A stretch of DNA of 64,000 nt, taken from contig NC_014962.1 in the NCBI RefSeq assembly GCF_000186345.1, positions 496,001 through 560,000 on the forward strand, read 5' to 3'. Positions within the stretch are counted from its first letter, which is position 1, and each line of letters begins with the position of its first letter. Both the position numbers and the translations under genes were made by a program. Shown piece after piece: positions 26,444 to 36,558 of the stretch. The DNA is from Isosphaera pallida ATCC 43644 (GTDB taxonomy: Bacteria > Planctomycetota > Planctomycetia > Isosphaerales > Isosphaeraceae). The notes beneath the pieces were generated by a model. That model did no database searches. It was not told where the DNA came from and saw only the letters and a program-made list of their open reading frames with translations.

Positions 26444-28249
26444 TCACCTCGCGTTCGATTCCTCCCCGGAGGCGTGTTCGGGGGATGCGCGCTGGACGTT
26501 TGAGGAAGCGTCGATGTCGTCGGGGTTGGTGAGCGGGTTGGGACGCGCCGCTGTTGACTTTTTCCTGGCGGCGAGTGGGTGCTTGGACAACGTGGTGTGG
26601 TTGTCGAGGCCGACGATCCTCAGAGATCCCCCATTCGCTTCAAACTCGGCGGCCAGTCCGTGAAGCTTCTCCATGACCGTGTGGTCCACCAGCCGGACAT
26701 CGGACAGATCCAACGTGACATCAGCATGGAGACCAAGCCCGAGGAGTCGGCGCTTGAGGGCCAGCCAGTTGGCGAACACGGCCGCCTGTCGCACCGTTAC
26801 CTGGTAAGCCACGGTCTCGATCGGCTCCACTTCGATCTCGCTGCGGACAATCGCCAGAAGTGGCATTCCGTGCCACCAATTCAAAGCCAATTTGACGGCG
26901 ACGCCGGCCGCGATCCCGGCCAGTAGATCGACCGTGAGGGTGACCACAATGGTGGTCAGGAAGACCGCCAGCTGCTCCTTGCCGATCAACCAGGTTTTCA
27001 CGAACTCGTGGGGATGGGCCAATCGCCATCCGGTATGCACAAGCATCGCTCCTAGCGCCGCGAGCGGGATCTGGTGGATGAGGTGGGGCAGGAAGAGGAC
27101 GAAGGCCAGCAGGAATAGCCCGTGAACGAAGTTCGCCCGGCGGGTTCTGGCTCCGTAGCCGATGTTGGCCGAACTGCGGACGATCTCGGAGATCATCGGC
27201 AAGCCGCCGATCATCGCCACCATGACGTTCGCCGCACCGATGGCTGTCAAGTCGCGATCCGGGTCGGAGGTTCGCCGCCACGGGTCAAGGAGGTCGATGG
27301 CTTTCATGCTCAAGAGCGATTCTAATGTGCCGATAAGGGCGAATAACAACACATATTTGAGGCCGATCCACGTCGCCAGTCCGCGAAAGTCAGGGAACTC
27401 GAACGCGGCGCTGGGTTCCCGCAGCACTTCCGGCATTTCAACTAGGAATCGGGGTCCGACCTCGTATCTTGAAAAGTGTTGCTGCTCTTCGCCTTCGGTT
27501 CCGAACGCATCGAAAAAGCTGTCAGGAAACAGGTAGGTGTGCCGATGTTCGAGGTTCATGGCGAGGCCCAGCGGCACGGCGATCAGCAGGACGGCGATTG
27601 GGGCCGGAATGCGGCGAATGAACCGGAAACGAACCATCGGTAGGCCGAACAACACGGCCAGACTGATCGTGCCGATCAGCGCGACGGCTGGGTTGAGGCC
27701 GCTGATGCTCCGAGGCAGAGCTGCCAGGAGTTCCAACGGGCTGAGGTCCGCGGGGGCGTCGATTCCAAGGACGATGTAAGCTTGTTTTGAGAAGATAATG
27801 ATCCCAATGGCCGCCAGCATTCCGTGGACGGCTGGCAGAGGGAAGAAGTCCGCGAGTTTTCCGAGTCGCAACACCCCGAACAGGATTTGGATGACGCCAG
27901 CTGCTACCCCGACGCCCAAGGTGAGCCGATACCCGAGCATCAGTCGGGCGGCCTCGGGCAGGTCGGGACCGAACGCCGCGCCCAGTTCCATCACCGACCC
28001 GGCGACGATCACGATCAACCCGGCGGCGGGTCCCTTGATCGTTAGTTGGGAGTTACTCAGCCAGGTGGCTACAAGTCCGCCTGCCACCGCCGTCCAGATT
28101 CCAGCGACCGGCGGGAAGTTGCTCGCTCGGGCCACGGCCAGACAAAGCGGCAACGCTACCAGAAACACGAGGAAGCCTGCCACAAGGTCGGCTAGAACGG
28201 CTCGAGGTCCAGTCACGGGCCCCGGCGGAATCTCAACGTGCCGCGACAT
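26444..28249 (-). CDS. SulP/SLC26 family anion transporter with STAS domain
   Basis: 601 residues; ATG 28249 follows GGAGG at eight bases. It starts 'RAVLADLVAGFLVFLVALPLCLAVA' and continues with about twelve to fourteen helices of the SulP fold ('SQLTIKGPAAGLIVIV' is the conserved substrate-site region), then a cytoplasmic STAS domain at about residues 470-555 ('VTLDLSDVRLVDHTVMEKLHG'). SulP proteins carry sulfate, bicarbonate, chloride or other anions; bicarbonate (BicA-like) cannot be told from sulfate by eye. It follows the HyfI-like gene by 96 bases on the same strand, so it may be the last gene of the Ehr-type operon. Confidence 0.88.
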   Translation of the reverse strand: MSRHVEIPPGPVTGPRAVLADLVAGFLVFLVALPLCLAVARASNFPPVAGIWTAVAGGLVATWLSNSQLTIKGPAAGLIVIVAGSVMELGAAFGPDLPEAARLMLGYRLTLGVGVAAGVIQILFGVLRLGKLADFFPLPAVHGMLAAIGIIIFSKQAYIVLGIDAPADLSPLELLAALPRSISGLNPAVALIGTISLAVLFGLPMVRFRFIRRIPAPIAVLLIAVPLGLAMNLEHRHTYLFPDSFFDAFGTEGEEQQHFSRYEVGPRFLVEMPEVLREPSAAFEFPDFRGLATWIGLKYVLLFALIGTLESLLSMKAIDLLDPWRRTSDPDRDLTAIGAANVMVAMIGGLPMISEIVRSSANIGYGARTRRANFVHGLFLLAFVLFLPHLIHQIPLAALGAMLVHTGWRLAHPHEFVKTWLIGKEQLAVFLTTIVVTLTVDLLAGIAAGVAVKLALNWWHGMPLLAIVRSEIEVEPIETVAYQVTVRQAAVFANWLALKRRLLGLGLHADVTLDLSDVRLVDHTVMEKLHGLAAEFEANGGSLRIVGLDNHTTLSKHPLAARKKSTAARPNPLTNPDDIDASSNVQRASPEHASGEESNAR

Positions 28250-28345: not shown

Positions 28346-29119
28346 TCACGGGATCGACGGCTCTGGCAGTTTATCGAGGAGTCGGAGCAACCCGTCGAGG
28401 ATGGTGAGCGGGTGCGGTGGACAACCAGGGATGTAGAGATCCACGGGAAGTACGTCGTCGGCTCCATTCGACTGCTCGGCGTGGCCCGCGAACGGGCCGC
28501 CCGAGATGGCGCACGCCCCCACGGCGATCACGATCTTGGGGGCGGGGACGGCCTCATGGCTTTTTTCGAGCGCCAGGACCATGTTCTTCGTGACCGGACC
28601 GGTGATCAGCAGCCCATCGGCGTGGCGGGGCGAGGCGACGAACTGGATGCCGAACCGCCCGAGGTCGAACACCACGGTGTTCAGCACGTTCACGTCCGCC
28701 TCGCAGCCGTTGCATCCGCCCGCGCTGACTTGTCGCAGTTTCAACGAGCGGCCAAACAGCCGCAGGGCCTTGGCGTCGAGTTTCTCGGCGAGGCGATACG
28801 CATCGCCGCGGCGCAGAAGGTCGTCCCGGCGACGCACGGCCAGACGGTGATCGGTGGTGTAGGCGATCGCCTCCTGGGGGCAGGCCGTCGTACACTCGGT
28901 GCAAAACAGACACTTGCCCAGATCGATGACCGGCCCGGCTGGGTCGAGCCGGATGGCGTTGGTGGGGCAGGCTTCGGCACAGGCTTGGCAACCACTGGGG
29001 CACCGGCTGGCGTCGACTATTGGCAACCCGCGAAGCCGATCGGGGAGAACCGGCGGGGCGAGCGGGTATTCGATGGTGCGGTGCTTTTGACGGAGACGTT
29101 CGGCGAGGACGGACAGCAT
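28346..29119 (-). CDS. HyfI/HycG-like small subunit (NuoB-type) fused to an N-terminal 2x[4Fe-4S] ferredoxin
   Basis: 257 residues. The N-terminal part (about 35-90) has two cysteine clusters: 'CPSGCQACAEACP' (first spacing is CxxxC, one residue longer than usual) and a regular 'CLFCTECTTACP'. The C-terminal part is the NuoB/HycG domain with the four ligands of the proximal [4Fe-4S] cluster in 'GGCNGCE', 'GACA' and 'IPGCPPHP'. In hyc/hyf systems the ferredoxin (HycF/HyfH) and the small subunit are separate genes; here they are one. It passes electrons to the HyfG-like subunit. It starts 12 bases after the HyfG-like stop. Confidence 0.88.
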   Translation of the reverse strand: MLSVLAERLRQKHRTIEYPLAPPVLPDRLRGLPIVDASRCPSGCQACAEACPTNAIRLDPAGPVIDLGKCLFCTECTTACPQEAIAYTTDHRLAVRRRDDLLRRGDAYRLAEKLDAKALRLFGRSLKLRQVSAGGCNGCEADVNVLNTVVFDLGRFGIQFVASPRHADGLLITGPVTKNMVLALEKSHEAVPAPKIVIAVGACAISGGPFAGHAEQSNGADDVLPVDLYIPGCPPHPLTILDGLLRLLDKLPEPSIP

Positions 29120-29131
29120 CGGCGTGGTCCC

Positions 29132-30658
29132 TTACAGGTCGTGGCCGCAATACGACAGATTGAAGCTCTTGTTGCACAACGGGAAGTCGGAAATCTGCTG
29201 GTTTCGCAAGGCCAGGGTCAGCCCGAACCAGTTGTGGAACGACGGATCGACAACCTTGTATGCGGAGAACCGCCCATCCGCGTTGGTTAGCGCTACGTGG
29301 CAGACCTCACCCCGCCAGCCCTCAACGAGCGAAACGACCAGCGAATCCGGCGCGAGCCGGAGTTCGCAAGGGCGGCGAACCGGGCCCTCGGGCAGGTTGG
29401 CCAGTTGGAAACCCACAAAGGCCGCCGATCGCTCGATCTCCAGCGCGCGGATGTAAGCACGGGCGAATACGTCGCCGGTTTGAAGGACGGCGACGGGAAT
29501 ATGAGTGTATTGCCAGATACCGGTGGGGAAGTCGTAGCGCACATCCCGCTCCACGCCGCACGCACGGGCCGCCGGACCCACCAGCCCGACCTCTAAGGCA
29601 GCCCGTTGGGAGACTACGCCGGTGCCCTCGAACCGGGCCTGAACGGTCACCGAGTTCCACAAGAGGTGCGCGCCGTTGAGATCCCGGATCGCCACCGCCA
29701 CCCGCTCCGCCATCCGCGTGGCCCTTGGTGGGTCAGCGTCGAACGCCACGCCGCCAGGTCGCACCAACCCCCGACCAAACCGGCTTCCGCACAGCTCGGC
29801 CGTCGTGTTCAAGAAATCACCCCGAAGCCGACCACAGTAGGACGCGGTGGGCAGGAACCCAACATCCCCGGCGAGCGCGCCGAGGTCGCCGGTGTGATTG
29901 GCCAGCCGCTCCAGTTCCAGGGCGACTCCGCGAAGGGCATGCGCTCGCGGTGGCGGGGTGAGGCCAGCCAACGCCTCGACCGCCTGACAGTAGGCCGTCG
30001 TATGGGCAATGGTCGTGTCCCCGGCAAGAGTCTCCATATAAACGATCGTTCGCTTGTCCGGTCCGTTGACCAGTCGCCGTTCGATCCCGCGATGCTGATA
30101 GCCAAGAGCGATCTCCAGATGCAAGACCTCCTCGCCGTGGCATTGGAAGCGGAAGTGTCCCGGCTCGATGATTCCAGCGTGAACTGGACCGACGGCCACC
30201 TCATGGGCTTCGGAGCCCTCTGCCCGGAAGAAATCGGTCACTCCGGGGTGAATGTGGTCCGATGGCCGTCTCCAAGCATCGTGTCCATCCCGGTATGATG
30301 GATGGAAGCGGATTGGTTTAAGCCACGGATGTCCGACCGGAACCACCGCCCATTGCTCGGCGATCTCGCGTTCGAACCAGTGGGCTTGGGGGGCGTCGGG
30401 GGTGAGCGACGGAAAGGAGTCGATGACCCGTGTGGCCGCCACGCCGATCGTCCCGACATCGGGGCGGGTCACGACGGCGTAGAGGCGGATCGCGTCTGGG
30501 CCGTCGGGAACGCCGAAGAACGCCGAGAGGAAGTTTCCAGCGGCGAGTTCGTCGAGAACCGCCGCGCGAAAGGCGGTGAACGACCAATCGGGCACCTCGG
30601 CGAGCGGCAGCGGCGTGGCGTTGGCCACCGCCGGCAAGGCGTGGGCGGTCATGGTCAT
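29132..30658 (-). CDS. HyfG/HycE-like large subunit (NuoC-NuoD fusion) without NiFe ligands: Ehr-type
   Basis: 508 residues; ATG 30658 overlaps the HyfF-like stop by four bases (ATGA). The first ~150 residues are NuoC-like ('AHWFEREIAEQWAVVPVGHPWLKP'). The rest is NuoD/HycE-like ('GPVHAGIIEPGHFRFQCHGE', 'LGYQHRGIERR'). Where hydrogenases have RxCGxC, this protein reads 'METLAGDTTIAH' (about residues 208-219); where they have the C-terminal CxxC it reads 'DFPLCNKSFNLSYCGHDL'. With no CxxC pair it cannot hold a NiFe centre. This is the pattern of energy-converting hydrogenase-related (Ehr) complexes. Electron donor or acceptor and pumped ion are unknown. Confidence 0.88.
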   Translation of the reverse strand: MTMTAHALPAVANATPLPLAEVPDWSFTAFRAAVLDELAAGNFLSAFFGVPDGPDAIRLYAVVTRPDVGTIGVAATRVIDSFPSLTPDAPQAHWFEREIAEQWAVVPVGHPWLKPIRFHPSYRDGHDAWRRPSDHIHPGVTDFFRAEGSEAHEVAVGPVHAGIIEPGHFRFQCHGEEVLHLEIALGYQHRGIERRLVNGPDKRTIVYMETLAGDTTIAHTTAYCQAVEALAGLTPPPRAHALRGVALELERLANHTGDLGALAGDVGFLPTASYCGRLRGDFLNTTAELCGSRFGRGLVRPGGVAFDADPPRATRMAERVAVAIRDLNGAHLLWNSVTVQARFEGTGVVSQRAALEVGLVGPAARACGVERDVRYDFPTGIWQYTHIPVAVLQTGDVFARAYIRALEIERSAAFVGFQLANLPEGPVRRPCELRLAPDSLVVSLVEGWRGEVCHVALTNADGRFSAYKVVDPSFHNWFGLTLALRNQQISDFPLCNKSFNLSYCGHDL

Positions 30659-32166
30659 GAGCCCTTCTCCGTCAGCGAGTCGGCGATTTCCCGCAACAAC
30701 GCGGTCAGGTCCGACGGCAAATGCAACCCCAGGGCGAGAACGCCGCCGAGCAACACCAGGGGCGGCAGCTTCATCAGCCAAGGCGTCGGGGTGTGGTCGG
30801 CCTCGACCTGCCCAAGCCGGGCCGGCTGGACTTGGCTTGGGCCGCGGTGGGTCATTGGGATCGCAATCGCGATCATTCCCAAGAAGATCACCGCCAACAG
30901 AAACAGGTACGCTCCGGCAACCCACGGGCGTTGCTGATCCACGATCGAGCGAAGGATGGCAAACTCGCTCAAAAAAATGCCAAAAGGCGGCGTGCCGGTG
31001 ATGGCCAGGATCCCGGCCAACCACAACCACCCCGTCAACGGTAGCCGGGCGAGGACGCCAGTGACCTCGACCACCGACTTGGTCCGGTACGAAGCCAACA
31101 GGTTGCCCGCCGTGAGGAACAACGCCCCCTTGGCCAGGGAATGGTTGACCGCGTGCAACCCGGCTGCATAGCCCGCCCCGAGACCGACCGCCAGGGCCAA
31201 AATTCCCATGTGTTCAACACTGGAATATGCGAGCATTCGCTTGAAGTCGGTTTGACCAACGATGAACACCCCGGCGACCAGCAGCGACAGCAGGCCGAAC
31301 CCAACGAGGAGTTCCCGGCTGAATAGCCCTTGCCCCGCCCCGAGGCACACCTGGTGGCCGCGAAGCACACCCAGGAACGCGCAGTTCAACAACGCCCCGG
31401 ACATCAGCGCGGACACCAGCGAAGGCGCCTCGCTGTGGGCGTCTGGTAGCCAGGTGTGGAACGGGGCGAGTCCCATCTTCGTCCCGTACCCCACCAGGAA
31501 GAAGATGAACGCAAGTTGGAGCCACAACGGGTTCATCTGGGGGGCCAAGGCGATCAAGTCGTCCACCAAGAGGGCCGAATTGCCATGAGCGGTCCCAGGT
31601 GGACGGGCCGCCGCCAACGCGAAGTTGCCGAGCATCGCCAAGGCGATTCCAACCGAACAAATCAACACGTACTTCCAAGTCGCCTCCAACGACCGGCGAT
31701 GTCGGTGAAAGTAGATCAGCGGCGCGCTGAAAAGAGTCGTGGCTTCGACGGCGACCCACATCAAACCAAAGTGCCGGCTGAGGGTGACCAGGTTCATGGA
31801 CGCCAGAAACAGCAGCAGGCAGCCAGTGAAGACCGCCTCCGGTTCGTTCACGAACAGGCTACCCTCCTCGAAGTCCCGGTGGAGCGATCCGTGGTTCTCG
31901 TGCTCCAGGTAGCCCAAGGCGTACACGGCGGCGGCTAGGAACAACACGCCGCAGATCGTCAGAACCAGCAGCCCCAGCGCGTCCAGGCCGATCCAACCAT
32001 CTAGGATGGGAGCGGGACGTTGTGGCCAATCCATCCACAGTCGCGCGGTCACGGCAAACTGGCCGACGGCGGCCGTGAGCAACAGGATACGGCGAAGCGG
32101 ATGCCGTTGAATCCCGAAGGCGGCGATCCCACTTAGCGTCGGGATGAGAAGGAGTGTCCAAAGCAT
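30655..32166 (-). CDS. HyfF-like proton/sodium-antiporter-type membrane subunit (NuoN/NuoM-like)
   Basis: 503 residues with about fourteen helices. Proton_antipo_M landmarks are present: 'FGLMWVAVEATTLFSAPLIY' (glutamate of TM5), 'VGYGTKMGLAPFHTWLPDAH' (lysine of TM7), 'KRMLAYSSVEHMGIL' and 'HAVNHSLAKGALFLTAGNL' (TM8 lysine). Such subunits move protons or sodium ions across the membrane. It starts four bases after the HyfE-like stop and overlaps the HyfG-like start, so the genes are translationally coupled. The order B-C-E-F-G-I is that of the hyf operon. Confidence 0.88.
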   Translation of the reverse strand: MLWTLLLIPTLSGIAAFGIQRHPLRRILLLTAAVGQFAVTARLWMDWPQRPAPILDGWIGLDALGLLVLTICGVLFLAAAVYALGYLEHENHGSLHRDFEEGSLFVNEPEAVFTGCLLLFLASMNLVTLSRHFGLMWVAVEATTLFSAPLIYFHRHRRSLEATWKYVLICSVGIALAMLGNFALAAARPPGTAHGNSALLVDDLIALAPQMNPLWLQLAFIFFLVGYGTKMGLAPFHTWLPDAHSEAPSLVSALMSGALLNCAFLGVLRGHQVCLGAGQGLFSRELLVGFGLLSLLVAGVFIVGQTDFKRMLAYSSVEHMGILALAVGLGAGYAAGLHAVNHSLAKGALFLTAGNLLASYRTKSVVEVTGVLARLPLTGWLWLAGILAITGTPPFGIFLSEFAILRSIVDQQRPWVAGAYLFLLAVIFLGMIAIAIPMTHRGPSQVQPARLGQVEADHTPTPWLMKLPPLVLLGGVLALGLHLPSDLTALLREIADSLTEKGS

Positions 32167-32170
32167 CCGG

Positions 32171-32821
32171 TCAATCCTTCAAAGTAGTGAGTTCATCAAC
32201 CTCAATCGAGTCAAACGCGCGGCTGATATGAAAGATCGCTACGCCCATGACTAGCACACCGAAGAAGACGTCGAGCAGAATGCCCATTTCCAGGAGCAAC
32301 GGCTCTTCCAGGGCCAGGGCCAGGCCGATCAGAAAGATGCCGTTTTCCATAACCAGGTAGCCAAGCACCTGATTGAGGGCGTTGTTGCGGGCGACGATCA
32401 GGAACAGCCCGGTCAGCAAGGTGAACACAGCCGCCGGCAGTTGCAGAGGTGAGGCGAGGGGAGCTGGCAACGGCATCCGGTTGGGCCCCGTCAGCCAAAA
32501 CGCCAGGCCGAGAGTCACGACCCCGCCGACGATGGACGCCTTGTAGCCAAATGGCGGGTCCTCCTCCCGACGGACAGCGGCCTGTCGCAGGGTGCGATCG
32601 AGCAGACGCGGGAAGACGATGCCCTTGAGAACGACCGTCAGTCCTCCGATCACCACCAACCGGACGGTCACCTCCTCGGGCGAGAGAACCAGCGGCATCA
32701 GGCCGGCGACCACCCCCTGGGTGGCCACCAGACGGATGCCGAAAGCGAGACGACTTGAGGCGGTGATCGCTAGATTCGTCAAAATGACGACGATCAGCGC
32801 CGGTTCAAGCAATCCGGTCAT
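32171..32821 (-). CDS. HyfE-like membrane subunit (NuoK-like)
   Basis: 216 residues from ATG 32821, which overlaps the HyfC-like stop by four bases; the longer frame to 32875 is not needed. Six or seven helices are visible, with the NuoK-type stretch 'NNALNQVLGYLVMENGIFLIGLAL' (its glutamate corresponds to the ion-path glutamate of NuoK/MrpC/HyfE). HyfE-type proteins are about this long. It should sit between the antiporter-like subunits and the HyfC-like anchor. Confidence 0.87.
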   Translation of the reverse strand: MTGLLEPALIVVILTNLAITASSRLAFGIRLVATQGVVAGLMPLVLSPEEVTVRLVVIGGLTVVLKGIVFPRLLDRTLRQAAVRREEDPPFGYKASIVGGVVTLGLAFWLTGPNRMPLPAPLASPLQLPAAVFTLLTGLFLIVARNNALNQVLGYLVMENGIFLIGLALALEEPLLLEMGILLDVFFGVLVMGVAIFHISRAFDSIEVDELTTLKD

Positions 32822-33750
32822 GGTAGAAGCACCCCGTGCCGCTCGATCAGAAACGCTAGGGAGGAGATAGCGCACGCTCCGATCAACAGCTGTGGAACGG
32901 ACGGCAATCGCAGCCGGGCCATGACCGACTCGACCAAGCCAACGCCGACCGCGACCCCCATCACTTCCGCGAGGGCGATCACGCTGTCCACGCCGGGCAA
33001 CCCGGTCTTGACGGGACTCAACAAGCCGACGAACAGAGCCGCGAAGAGCCAGAGTTTCAGCGCCGCCCCGTACAGGATGAAGGCGAAGTCGGGACCACTG
33101 TGATCGAGCACCATCACCTCGTGAATCATGGTCAGTTCAAGATGCGTAGTCGGGTCATCCACCGGGATACGGCTGTTCTCAGACAGGAGAACCACCACCC
33201 AGGCCACGGCGACCAGCGCAAGTACGAAGCCAGTTCGGCTCCACACGGCCGCGGACATTCCCAGATGGAGCACGGACAGGGACAGGGACCCGTTGCCGCC
33301 GACCTCTCGGGCCAACGCGGCCAAGCTGAGCATGAGGGCCGGTTCGGTCAGGGCCGAAAACCACACTTCCCGGTTGGCTCCCATCCCCTCGAACGCCGAT
33401 CCCGTGTCCAGAGCGGCGAGGACCGTGACCAATCGGGCCAGGCCGAGGAGGTAGACGAACGCGATGAAATCGCCTTGGAACGCCACCAGCGCCCGCGCTT
33501 GGCCGAACGGCACAAGCGTGGTCGCGGTGAGGACGGCCGCCAAACCGATCAACGGTCCGGCCCGGAACACCCAGGACGTGGTCCGACTGTAAACCGCTCC
33601 CTTGCGGAGCAACCGCAGCAGGTCGTGGTACGGCTGGAGCCACGGTTGACCTTGACGACCGGCGATCCACGCTTTGGTGCGATTGATCACGCTGAGCAGG
33701 AACGGGGCACCCACAAGCGCGAGGATCAGGTGGCAGATGCTCGCAATCAT
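32818..33750 (-). CDS. HyfC-like membrane subunit (NuoH-like)
   Basis: 310 residues from ATG 33750, overlapping the HyfB-like stop by four bases. The open frame extends to 34422 but lies inside the HyfB-like gene. About eight helices are visible, with NuoH/HycD landmarks: 'KAWIAGRQGQPWLQPYHDLLRLLRK' near the start (shortened form of the quinone-site loop), 'AFEGMGANREVWFSALTEPA' and 'ENSRIPVDDPTTHLELTMIHE'. It connects the peripheral arm to the ion-pumping arm. Confidence 0.88.
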   Translation of the reverse strand: MIASICHLILALVGAPFLLSVINRTKAWIAGRQGQPWLQPYHDLLRLLRKGAVYSRTTSWVFRAGPLIGLAAVLTATTLVPFGQARALVAFQGDFIAFVYLLGLARLVTVLAALDTGSAFEGMGANREVWFSALTEPALMLSLAALAREVGGNGSLSLSVLHLGMSAAVWSRTGFVLALVAVAWVVVLLSENSRIPVDDPTTHLELTMIHEVMVLDHSGPDFAFILYGAALKLWLFAALFVGLLSPVKTGLPGVDSVIALAEVMGVAVGVGLVESVMARLRLPSVPQLLIGACAISSLAFLIERHGVLLP

Positions 33751-35750
33751 CCCTTCACTCCCAACACCCACACCACCAGACCCAGCAGCGTCAGGGTGAT
33801 GTAGAGCACGTACACGTGGACCCGTCCCAGCTGGAGGATCCGACCCCGAGCCAAGGTCGCGCGCAGCGCGTTGAACAGAGGGCGGTAGATAACCGCCTTG
33901 ACCGGATCGACGGCGTCGGTCCGCACGGGCGGCTCGGATGGAAAGTAGGGCATCTCGGACGGGACTTCCCGGCTGTACCCCGCCCCGCCCCCGAGAACCG
34001 ACGCGGCCGGTTCGGCGAACGACGACCCGGTGTACTGCATCGACGCGGCGGGTCGGGCGTAGCCACAGTCCCAGGTGACCGCAGTGGCGACCACGCGCCC
34101 GGCGAGCAACGCCTTGCGGACGACCACCAGGAGCAGGAGGATTCCTAGCAGGATCGTCGAAGTCGTTGTGACACCCCCGAGCGGTCCGGTCACTTCGGGC
34201 AACGCCGCCGTAACGACCGGCGCGGGTAGTCGGGTGGCCACCGCGATTGTCGGGGCGAGTTGGCCAACCACCACGGGAGCGGCAAGCCCAAGCGACAGGC
34301 ACCCAATGGCCAGCGCGATGAAGATCGCCGAGGCGGTCCAACCAAGCCGTTGTGGCGGGACCGACGGTCCGCGGGTGGTTCCCAGGAAGGTTAAGCCCGC
34401 CGCCTTGGCAAAGGCGTAGCACGCCAGACCCCCGACGAAGGCTAGGCCGCCGACCACCGCCAAGGGCGGGAGCATCGCCACCGAACTCAGACGGGCTTCC
34501 TCCTCGAACGCGGTGAGGAAGATGAGGAACTCACTTGAAAACCCGCATAGCGGCGGCAGTCCGCAAAGACCGGCGGAGGCGACCACGAACGTCGTGCCAA
34601 CCACTGGGGCGACCTTGAGCAAACCGCCCAGGCGGTCAATCTCGGTATGTCCGGCCAACCGTTCGACGGCTCCCGCCCCCAGAAACAAAGCTGATTTGCA
34701 AATGGCGTGGCTGAGGATATGCAGCATCACCCCGCCGAACCCGAGTGCCTCCAACGCCACCCCGCCTCGGTCAGGGCTGGCCGAGAGGCCAAGAAGACCG
34801 GTTCCCAGGCCGAGCAGGATGACGCCGATGTTCTCAACGCTGCTATAGGCGAGCAACGTCTTCAGATCACGCTGGACCAGCGCGTTCAAAATGCCGAGCA
34901 CCCCGCTCAGCAGTCCCAGACCGATTAGCACCCAGGCCCACCATACCGGCGGTGGACCAAGCATCGTGAGGACCCGCAGCAGGCCGTACAGCCCGAGTTT
35001 GCTCATTACTCCTGACAGAACGGCCGGCACCGGTCCCGGAGCAGCGGCGTAGGACGTGGGCAGCCAGACGTGGAATGGGATCACCCCGGCCTTCACCCCA
35101 AACCCGGAAACCGCCAGGAGAAAGACCGTATCGACCAACGCCGTAGGCAGTCCCTTCGCCGAGAGGACGTCGAACTCCAGCGGACCACCACGCGCCAAAA
35201 TCAAGAACATCGGCAGCAGAAAAGCAGTCCCAAGATGAGTCGCGGCGAGAAACGACCACCCGGCGACGCGGACCTCTGGTCGGTCGTCCCGAAAGACAAC
35301 CAGAACGTAGGCGGTGATCGACATCACTTCCCACGCGACCAGAAACAGCAGCACATTCGCGGCCAGAACCACCACCATCATGGCTGCCGCCAGGAGTGTG
35401 TACGCCAACCAGAACAGCCCGTGAGAGCGATCCGGCTCGGTGGCCGCTAGGTAATCCGCGAGCGGGACTGCCACCACGGCCGGGATGACGAGCACGAGCA
35501 CCAGAAAGAACGCGGCGAGCGGGTCCAAAACCAGGTGGAACGCCCCCCCAGGGATCGTCGCCCAGGGAAGGACCAACGATTCAGGGGATCCACCGGCGAG
35601 GGCAGCGAGAACCGCCGGCAGGGCCACGCCGGCGGCCGCGACGCAGGCGGTCGCTGCGACCGTCCCGGCGGCCCGCGGTTTGCGACCGAGGACCAGCGCG
35701 ACCAGACCACCCGCGCTGAGCAGGCCAATCGCGGTGAGTAGCGGGAGCAT
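33747..35750 (-). CDS. HyfB-like proton/sodium-antiporter-type membrane subunit (NuoL-like)
   Basis: 667 residues, about sixteen helices. Key charged residues of this family are present: Glu141 in 'LVAWEVMSITAY', lysine near 220 in 'GFGVKAGVIPFHVWLP', 'KTLLAYSSVENIGV', and 'LSHAICKSALFLGAG'. The C-terminus has the HycC/HyfB-type tail ('TWDCGYARPAASMQYTGSSF', 'YFPSEPPVRTDAVDPV'), not the long lateral helix of NuoL. The start codon lies one base after the stop of the regulator gene, so it begins the structural part of the operon. Confidence 0.9.
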   Translation of the reverse strand: MLPLLTAIGLLSAGGLVALVLGRKPRAAGTVAATACVAAAGVALPAVLAALAGGSPESLVLPWATIPGGAFHLVLDPLAAFFLVLVLVIPAVVAVPLADYLAATEPDRSHGLFWLAYTLLAAAMMVVVLAANVLLFLVAWEVMSITAYVLVVFRDDRPEVRVAGWSFLAATHLGTAFLLPMFLILARGGPLEFDVLSAKGLPTALVDTVFLLAVSGFGVKAGVIPFHVWLPTSYAAAPGPVPAVLSGVMSKLGLYGLLRVLTMLGPPPVWWAWVLIGLGLLSGVLGILNALVQRDLKTLLAYSSVENIGVILLGLGTGLLGLSASPDRGGVALEALGFGGVMLHILSHAICKSALFLGAGAVERLAGHTEIDRLGGLLKVAPVVGTTFVVASAGLCGLPPLCGFSSEFLIFLTAFEEEARLSSVAMLPPLAVVGGLAFVGGLACYAFAKAAGLTFLGTTRGPSVPPQRLGWTASAIFIALAIGCLSLGLAAPVVVGQLAPTIAVATRLPAPVVTAALPEVTGPLGGVTTTSTILLGILLLLVVVRKALLAGRVVATAVTWDCGYARPAASMQYTGSSFAEPAASVLGGGAGYSREVPSEMPYFPSEPPVRTDAVDPVKAVIYRPLFNALRATLARGRILQLGRVHVYVLYITLTLLGLVVWVLGVKG

Positions 35751-35751
35751 G

Positions 35752-36447
35752 TCAGCCGGCCTCCGAGGTGGGTCGTGGATGTCGGAGCGCCTCGTCGATC
35801 GCCGTGGCCGCGGTGATGGTTTCTTCAGCCGAGGCTTTTCGAGCGATCACGTTGCGGAACGCCGAATCACTCAAGGCGTACATCAGCTTGGCGAGTAAAC
35901 GAAGGTGAATTCGTGGGGTTGGGGCGATCAAAGTGAACACGGTCTGAACCATATCGGCGGGATTGTTCGGATCCCAGGCAATCGGGGCCGCCAGGTGGCA
36001 CACCGCGAGGGTTGGTGGGACCGTCGCGTGGACGAGTGGGTATCGCGGGTGGGGAACCGCAAACCCGGAGCCCAGAGATGTGCTGCCCACCCCCTCTCGG
36101 CTGCGCAGCAAGGCCAACAGGTCGTCCCGAGGAACGTCGGGACGCATGGGCACGCGATCGACAATCGCCTCCAGCACTTCGCTGGGCGTGGAGCCCGGCA
36201 CGTCCCAATAGACACCGCCGCACTCGATGGCGTGGTCGAGCCGAGGGATCGCGCCGTTGCCGGGCGGGAAAACCTCCCCGGTGATAGGGATGCGATTCTC
36301 GGCCAGCCACTCCAACAGATGAACTGGGTTCAACCGCTGGTGACCGTTCACCTGCTGTACGGGCAACCCCTTCTCCTGCACCCACCGGTAGACGGTCGGT
36401 TCGGATACCCGCAGCATTCTCGAGACGTCACGCACGGTCAGGAGCAT
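35752..36447 (-). CDS. HTH (MerR/excisionase-type) - PTS EIIA (PtsN-like) fusion regulator
   Basis: 231 residues from ATG 36447, with GGGAGG five bases upstream. Residues ~1-55 are a MerR/excisionase helix-turn-helix ('LTVRDVSRMLRVSEPTVYRW', 'VNGHQRLNPVHLLEWL'). Residues ~80-225 are a PTS EIIA type 2 domain: 'LLRSREGVGSTSLGSGFAVP' followed by the phospho-acceptor His133, and 'HLRLLAKLMYALSDSAFRNV'. In PtsN proteins this histidine is phosphorylated by the PTS phosphorelay and reports nitrogen, carbon or potassium status. As the first gene before the Ehr-type subunits it probably regulates that operon. No PTS transporter or HPr is seen here. Confidence 0.82.
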   Translation of the reverse strand: MLLTVRDVSRMLRVSEPTVYRWVQEKGLPVQQVNGHQRLNPVHLLEWLAENRIPITGEVFPPGNGAIPRLDHAIECGGVYWDVPGSTPSEVLEAIVDRVPMRPDVPRDDLLALLRSREGVGSTSLGSGFAVPHPRYPLVHATVPPTLAVCHLAAPIAWDPNNPADMVQTVFTLIAPTPRIHLRLLAKLMYALSDSAFRNVIARKASAEETITAATAIDEALRHPRPTSEAG

Positions 36448-36558
36448 CGCAACCTCCCACAACATTCCTTTCCACACCACTCGCCCAGACCCCACCGCTT
36501 CGTCCATCGCGCAACCGAAACGGTGGGACCACCTGGCGACCGCGCTGCGTTCGACCGG

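Follow-up and report, generated by a model that had tools for sequence, protein, structure and literature searches.

What does a complex built like a [NiFe] hydrogenase do when the cysteines that should hold its metal are gone? The question is raised by seven tightly packed genes of the planctomycete Isosphaera pallida ATCC 43644, delimited by open reading frames (ORFs) and Pfam matches at positions 36447 to 28346 (minus strand) of the 64,000-nucleotide (nt) stretch of contig NC_014962.1 analysed here (contig positions 496,001 to 560,000; hereafter 'the window', to which coordinates refer unless another locus is named). The cluster has the architecture of hydrogenase 4, its large subunit carries none of the ligands of the NiFe site, and it is an energy-converting hydrogenase-related (Ehr) complex.

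Ehr complexes without NiFe motifs, and of unknown function, have been described from Nitrospira (PMC10284858, PMC12342949), Sulfobacillus (PMC4378227), and bacteria of the candidate phyla radiation (PMC7304191). HydDB groups them with the homologues not involved in H2 metabolism (PMC5037454), and a formate dehydrogenase partner has been proposed in lineages sibling to Cyanobacteria (PMC6349859). An initial annotation of this DNA, made from the sequence alone, stated that Ehr has no agreed substrate, and none is established in the accessible text of the literature examined. Ehr is an unsolved complex of many phyla, and the I. pallida copy resides in a cultured, genome-sequenced aerobe.

The vacated metal site

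The large subunit (508 amino acids) contains no CxxC. In an alignment to HycE of the Escherichia coli formate hydrogenlyase (FHL), the four metal ligands C241, C244, C531, and C534 fall on A212, T215, S502, and G505. The initial annotation had already claimed that CxxC is missing from this subunit; the motif is likewise missing from all 66 large subunits that we aligned, the window's included, and no overlooked pair came to light. Adding 20 further planctomycete loci and dropping two duplicates gave a set of 84 distinct sequences, again including the window's, in which the four positions read A (72), S (10), or C (2); T (81) or S (3); S (83) or A (1); and G (84). The ligand pairs are gone in 84 of 84, a single Cys at the first position being left in two. 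The position of the canopy Asp (HycE D529) is occupied by N in 80, S in three, and D in one of these sequences, and N is also found there in the host genome's own NuoD. The window's protein ends in GHDL and has no C-terminal extension.

NiFe maturation genes, which the initial annotation had suggested looking for, were sought through HypD (PF01924), the one Hyp factor covered: there was no match in the I. pallida genome (99.97% complete), the same search being positive for E. coli and three more of 14 control genomes. The [NiFe] large subunit family PF00374 likewise has no match in this genome, and PF00346 has two, namely the cluster's HyfG and a NuoD-like gene situated elsewhere beside nuoB-, nuoC-, and nuoE-like genes. 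The absence of HypD was considered as a rule for the clade to which the window's protein belongs (clade 1, described below) and was rejected, because 8 of the 20 planctomycete genomes with a clade-1 large subunit have a match, seven of them above the cut-off. Other hydrogenases may explain HypD in those eight genomes.

Group 4 architecture, loss of the metal ligands, and the failure to find HypD and PF00374 together identify the cluster as an Ehr complex. The initial annotation had reached the same identification, which is further borne out by the pump and Fe–S residues described in the next section. It could be argued that the complex has remained a hydrogenase, one whose metal site is unusual, given that its fold and relay are those of FHL (the closest structure to an AlphaFold2 (AF2) model of the isolated large subunit is HycE, 7z0s_E). 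We regard this as highly improbable: the ligand Cys pairs are missing, HypD was found neither in I. pallida nor in 12 of the 20 clade-1 planctomycete genomes (among which many are incomplete), and expression of the Nitrospira moscoviensis Ehr is reported not to be raised by H2 (PMC12342949).

Retained electron, proton, and ion paths

The alignments distinguish what has been lost, the metal ligands and the canopy Asp, from what has been retained, namely the proton relay, the electron wiring, and the pumps. Five HycE residues discussed for proton transfer in the FHL structure (E193, R478, H284, E437, and R395; PMC9474812) correspond to E165, R449, H255, E407, and R365, each present in 84 of 84 sequences; overall, 90 of the 508 columns of the large subunit alignment are invariant. 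In the small subunit, the four Cys of the proximal cluster are kept in 61 of 61 sequences, with the spacing of HycG and HyfI and without a gap relative to either. The proximal motif is CNGC, as in HycG, and the adjacent Cys pair of complex I is not present. The eight ferredoxin-type Cys of the same protein are kept in 57–61 of 61. Among the membrane subunits, HyfB keeps E141, K220, K251, and K352 (55–56 of 56), HyfF keeps E141, K230, and K346 (69 of 69), and HyfC has many acidic and basic residues that are invariant across 53 sequences.

The large subunits also share features of their own. D214 and K497 are present in 84 of 84, and six Cys recur: C173 (84), C275 (82), C290 (83), C453 (78), C495 (79), and C504 (80). 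All six occur together in 70 of the 84, and this raises the alternative that a sulfur compound or a disulfide is the substrate reduced in the pocket, by means of such Cys (C495 and C504 lie near the former L2 motif), as does the archaeal MBS sulfane sulfur reductase, a characterised non-hydrogenase member of the superfamily. In MBS, however, catalysis has been assigned to a proximal cluster with three Cys (PMC7684303, accessible text), whereas the cluster here has four, in HycG spacing. Moreover, neither C504 (S or A in 4 of 84 sequences) nor C495 (N, T, or I in 5 of 84) is absolutely required, and no additional gene family recurs in the neighbourhood. We therefore consider reduction of a sulfur substrate unlikely.

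The HTH-EIIA gene

The first gene of the cluster, which lies within the stretch covered by the initial annotation and was not mentioned there, encodes a protein with an HTH_17 and a PTS_EIIA_2 domain (HTH-EIIA). Its phospho-His motif is GSGFAVPH, the His being H153 in a 251-residue reading from a start at 36507; in most homologues the start is the Met that corresponds to 36447. All 50 HTH-EIIA rows retain the phospho-His. An AF2 model (predicted local distance difference test score, pLDDT, 87) returned PtsN proteins as its first structure matches. The host genome has two matches to enzyme I of the phosphotransferase system (PTS; PF05524) and one to HPr. As a separate observation, one host enzyme I gene (L160:9945-11798, plus strand) is separated from upstream nuoB-C-D-E-like genes by ~2 kb that include an SMP-30-like gene; this proximity may be due to chance.

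Of 101 loci in all, 16 end before hyfB and 10 before its upstream region. The other 75 can be read, and in 68 of them (66 of 73 after removal of three duplicate loci) the antiporter gene is preceded on its own strand by an HTH-EIIA gene. The latter lies within 360 nt of the first HyfB-like match except in L118, where a partial match is 1.7 kb off, at a contig end. Strong HTH-EIIA matches (E up to 1.1e-61) were obtained in 19 of 199 genomes of the phylum, including 16 of the 20 that have a clade-1 Ehr; in three of the 16 (G004, G115, and G141), the best HTH-EIIA match is on another contig than hyfG. The analysis covered six loci with a close HTH-EIIA gene away from hyfG (L148–L152 and L157); L151 alone yielded a HyfB-like gene, and the neighbours in L148–L150 include no clear HTH-EIIA partner.

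From domain content and gene order, HTH-EIIA is likely a dedicated regulator that senses the phosphorylation state of the PTS and controls the cluster. A link between EIIA and Ehr was not found in the literature searched, most subscription papers lying outside that search. The conserved gene offers a handle on the conditions under which Ehr is used.

More distant HTH-EIIA genes have an ion-transport gene downstream in 6 of 18 loci, a raw frequency uncorrected for EIIA genes at large. The four best-scoring (138–181 bits; L153–L156) are directly upstream of CLC genes, L169 is upstream of a Na+/H+ exchanger gene, and L168 is upstream of a gene for the AC39 subunit of a V-type ATPase, with a weak G-subunit-like gene before AC39. 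The idea that HTH-EIIA marks ion transport only was rejected: in the other 12 loci, none of the first downstream genes examined encodes an ion transporter; these genes comprise a second EIIA gene (three loci), response regulators (two), SMP-30-like genes (two), a release factor, an aldehyde dehydrogenase, TPR proteins, and, in two loci, no recognised gene.

These loci bear on a second alternative, under which the cluster would carry out no net redox reaction and would instead be an ion transporter, or a device for pH or ion homeostasis, gated by the Fe–S arm and HTH-EIIA. The six loci with an ion-transport gene (CLC in four, a Na+/H+ exchanger and a V-type ATPase in one each) speak for it, as do the intact pump residues and, in the window, a SulP anion transporter gene 97 nt downstream. 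Yet SulP matches occur in only 2 of 82 loci, one being the window's own, and conservation of the electron-path Cys (57–61 of 61) and of the proton relay (84 of 84) would hardly be expected under selection in a pure transporter. On balance, a complex without redox chemistry seems improbable.

Descent and distribution

A phylogeny of the large subunit, an analysis that the initial annotation had proposed, was inferred from 47 rows with the trait columns masked. The Cys-less proteins form part of the Hyf-type group 4 hydrogenases, with Nuo as the outgroup. Clade 1 is supported at 100/100. A second large-subunit type, detected in six of the 199 genomes (E ~1e-112 to 1e-117), falls into two families: f76 (L137 and L141) has no ligand Cys, the motifs reading SGDS and SYAG, and joins clade 1 with support of 100/94.8; f45 (L136 and L138–L140) retains all four Cys in CGVC and CYSC and branches next (95/78). 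The Cys-less and f45 proteins adjoin HyfG/HycE within group 4. The minimum number of changes in Cys state on this tree, Nuo included, is two, and the simplest reading of the sequences would be a single loss of the ligands within Hyf-type hydrogenases, distinct from the loss that gave rise to complex I. The root is less certain than the clades, because the bootstrap was incompletely settled and the outgroup branches are long.

Within f45, L138 (G070) and L139 (G088) combine the four NiFe Cys with the absence of a C-terminal extension, and HypD was not found in either genome, one of which is a single contig of 99% completeness. These may be four-Cys large subunits without NiFe maturation. The related genomes of L136 and L140 have HypD.

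The initial annotation described Ehr as known from a few bacteria, which is too narrow. A scan of a genome collection returned 528 relatives, of which the best 80 (55–68% identity) come from Planctomycetes, Verrucomicrobia, Lentisphaerae, Deltaproteobacteria, Acidobacteria, Elusimicrobia, Omnitrophota, Riflebacteria, Hydrogenedentes, and others; further lineages are published, and about half of Nitrospirales genomes carry Ehr (PMC12342949). Within the phylum, a clade-1 large subunit (E <1e-200) occurs in 20 of the 199 genomes. The window's class contributes 12 of the 199, and among these only the window's own genome has one.

Proposed mechanism

The gene content, the lost ligands, the conserved clusters, the relay and pump residues, and the conserved regulator gene, all as read from sequence comparison, are consistent with an explanation that we consider probable. 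The cluster would encode an Ehr complex that arose when a Hyf/Hyc-type group 4 [NiFe] hydrogenase lost its metal site. A low-potential donor, in the simplest case ferredoxin, would deliver electrons to the HyfH-like domain of the fused small subunit, from which they would pass through three [4Fe-4S] clusters to the large subunit and its vacated NiFe pocket. In that pocket, an acceptor other than that of a hydrogenase (i.e. one not yielding H2) would be reduced, with protons supplied through E165, R449, H255, E407, and R365, and the energy would drive ion pumping through HyfC, HyfB, HyfF, and HyfE, the whole being under HTH-EIIA control. The complex might also run in reverse, using an ion gradient to make low-potential electrons.

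Our best single guess for the acceptor, offered tentatively, is a quinone bound otherwise than in complex I, since quinone reduction needs no metal and quinone is the acceptor of complex I.

Several observations weigh against this explanation or parts of it. The positions of H38 and Y87 of Nqo4 are occupied by I164 and G213 in 84 of 84 sequences, which argues against a canonical complex I quinone site. Several of the relay residues are common to complex I, so they are evidence of a working relay and not of a particular substrate. The AF2 model of the isolated large subunit has low confidence at the former metal site (pLDDT below 50 at residues 140–159, 161–164, 166–185, and 498–508). No gene family other than the seven genes of the cluster, and shadow ORFs over them, recurs in at least 6 of 81 loci within up to 10 kb on either side, where contigs reach. 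Regulation by HTH-EIIA is argued from domain content and gene order; the gene is not upstream of the antiporter gene in 7 of the 73 readable loci (in one of these, L015, it is directly upstream of hyfG instead), and a clade-1 Ehr match is missing from 3 of the 19 genomes in which HTH-EIIA matches strongly. Finally, the gamma domain of 2-oxoacid:ferredoxin oxidoreductases (PF01558) has no match in the I. pallida genome, which leaves the source of reduced ferredoxin unclear in an organism described, for strain IS1B, as obligately aerobic, thermophilic, and chemoheterotrophic (PMC3072084).

The same result makes reverse operation of the Ehr complex a real option. Co-occurrence of Ehr with these oxidoreductases was examined and set aside: 19 of the 20 clade-1 planctomycete genomes have a PF01558 match, I. 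pallida being the sole one without, but so do 185 of the 199 genomes of the phylum (it was not found in 14), and the association is therefore uninformative.

A wider and rather doubtful reading would make the HTH-EIIA family a set of PTS-controlled switches for membrane ion transport (Ehr, CLC, Na+/H+ exchanger, and V-type ATPase), with Ehr as a pump, controlled by the energy state, in whose former NiFe pocket an organic carrier would be reduced by way of the hydrogenase proton relay. If this were true, the superfamily would have exchanged H2 for another substrate along two separate routes, that of complex I and that of Ehr.

Comparison with known systems

The I. pallida cluster is a further member of the known Ehr kind. 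The Ehr complexes of Nitrospira and Sulfobacillus likewise have group-4-like subunits, no NiFe-binding motifs, and no known function; they are compared here by description only, and the accessible text of their accounts, like that of the other literature examined, mentions no HTH-EIIA partner. With hydrogenase 4 and FHL of E. coli (Hyf and Hyc; group 4a), the cluster shares gene order, the fused NuoC/NuoD large subunit, the Cys spacing of the small subunit, and the proton relay. It differs in lacking metal ligands, in the fusion of HyfH and HyfI, and in having no HyfA-, HyfD-, or HyfJ-like gene within the packed cluster. Respiratory complex I (NuoB, C, D, H, and the antiporters) has the same fold, Fe–S arm, and pumps, but the I. 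pallida cluster lacks an NADH module and equivalents of H38 and Y87, and its proximal CxxC is of the hydrogenase type rather than an adjacent pair. MBS of Pyrococcus furiosus, also compared by description only, is likewise a complex-I-type pump without NiFe ligands; it has a shortened loop along with its three-Cys cluster (PMC7684303), neither of which is found in the I. pallida small subunit. Finally, EIIA-Ntr (PtsN), which includes the nearest solved structures, shares with HTH-EIIA the EIIA domain and its phospho-His motif, whereas HTH-EIIA adds an N-terminal HTH_17 domain and is located in an ion-pump operon.

Gene content and neighbourhood

The features are listed in Table 1. The gene order B-C-E-F-G-I given in the initial annotation holds for the genes and for the three 4-nt ATGA overlaps, which are exact at 33747-33750, 32818-32821, and 30655-30658; the last gene, however, is a fusion of HyfH and HyfI. 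The NuoC-like N-terminal part of the large subunit (PF00329) was also missing from that annotation.

Table 1. Features of the Ehr cluster and its downstream neighbour in the window
Feature	Position	Strand	Basis and remarks
HTH_17 (excisionase-type) + PTS_EIIA_2 gene	35752..36447	-	Pfam; ends 1 nt before hyfB
HyfB-like antiporter subunit	33747..35750	-	PF00361; NF005086 (hydrogenase 4 subunit B), score under cut-off
HyfC/NuoH-like membrane anchor	32818..33750	-	PF00146
HyfE-like membrane subunit	32171..32821	-	PF00420; NF008556, score under cut-off
HyfF-like antiporter subunit	30655..32166	-	PF00361; NF005044, score under cut-off
HyfG-like large subunit, fused NuoC/NuoD type, without NiFe ligands, 508 amino acids	29132..30658	-	PF00329 + PF00346; alignments; AF2 model
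Former L1 site METLAGDTTIAH	30002..30037 (residues 208-219)	-	A212, G213, D214, T215 replace CGIC
Former L2 site, C-terminus DFPLCNKSFNLSYCGHDL	29135..29188 (residues 491-508)	-	N500, S502, G505 replace HycE D529, C531, C534
HyfH+HyfI-like fusion small subunit	28346..29119	-	Pfam; ferredoxin part with two [4Fe-4S] motifs, joined to a NuoB/HycG-type part that carries four proximal-cluster Cys
SulP-family anion transporter with STAS domain	26444..28249	-	97 nt downstream of the small subunit gene

SulP was considered as a conserved partner (for bicarbonate or sulfate uptake) and rejected: besides the window's own gene, the only match is in L015, ~7 kb past the small-subunit gene. Some clade-1 clusters contain two HyfB-like antiporter genes in tandem (L117, L118, L123, and L125), and L117 also has two HTH-EIIA genes. 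The clusters of L015 and L057 are rearranged, with the HTH-EIIA gene directly upstream of hyfG, and in L057 the F-E-C-B genes lie in the opposite orientation.

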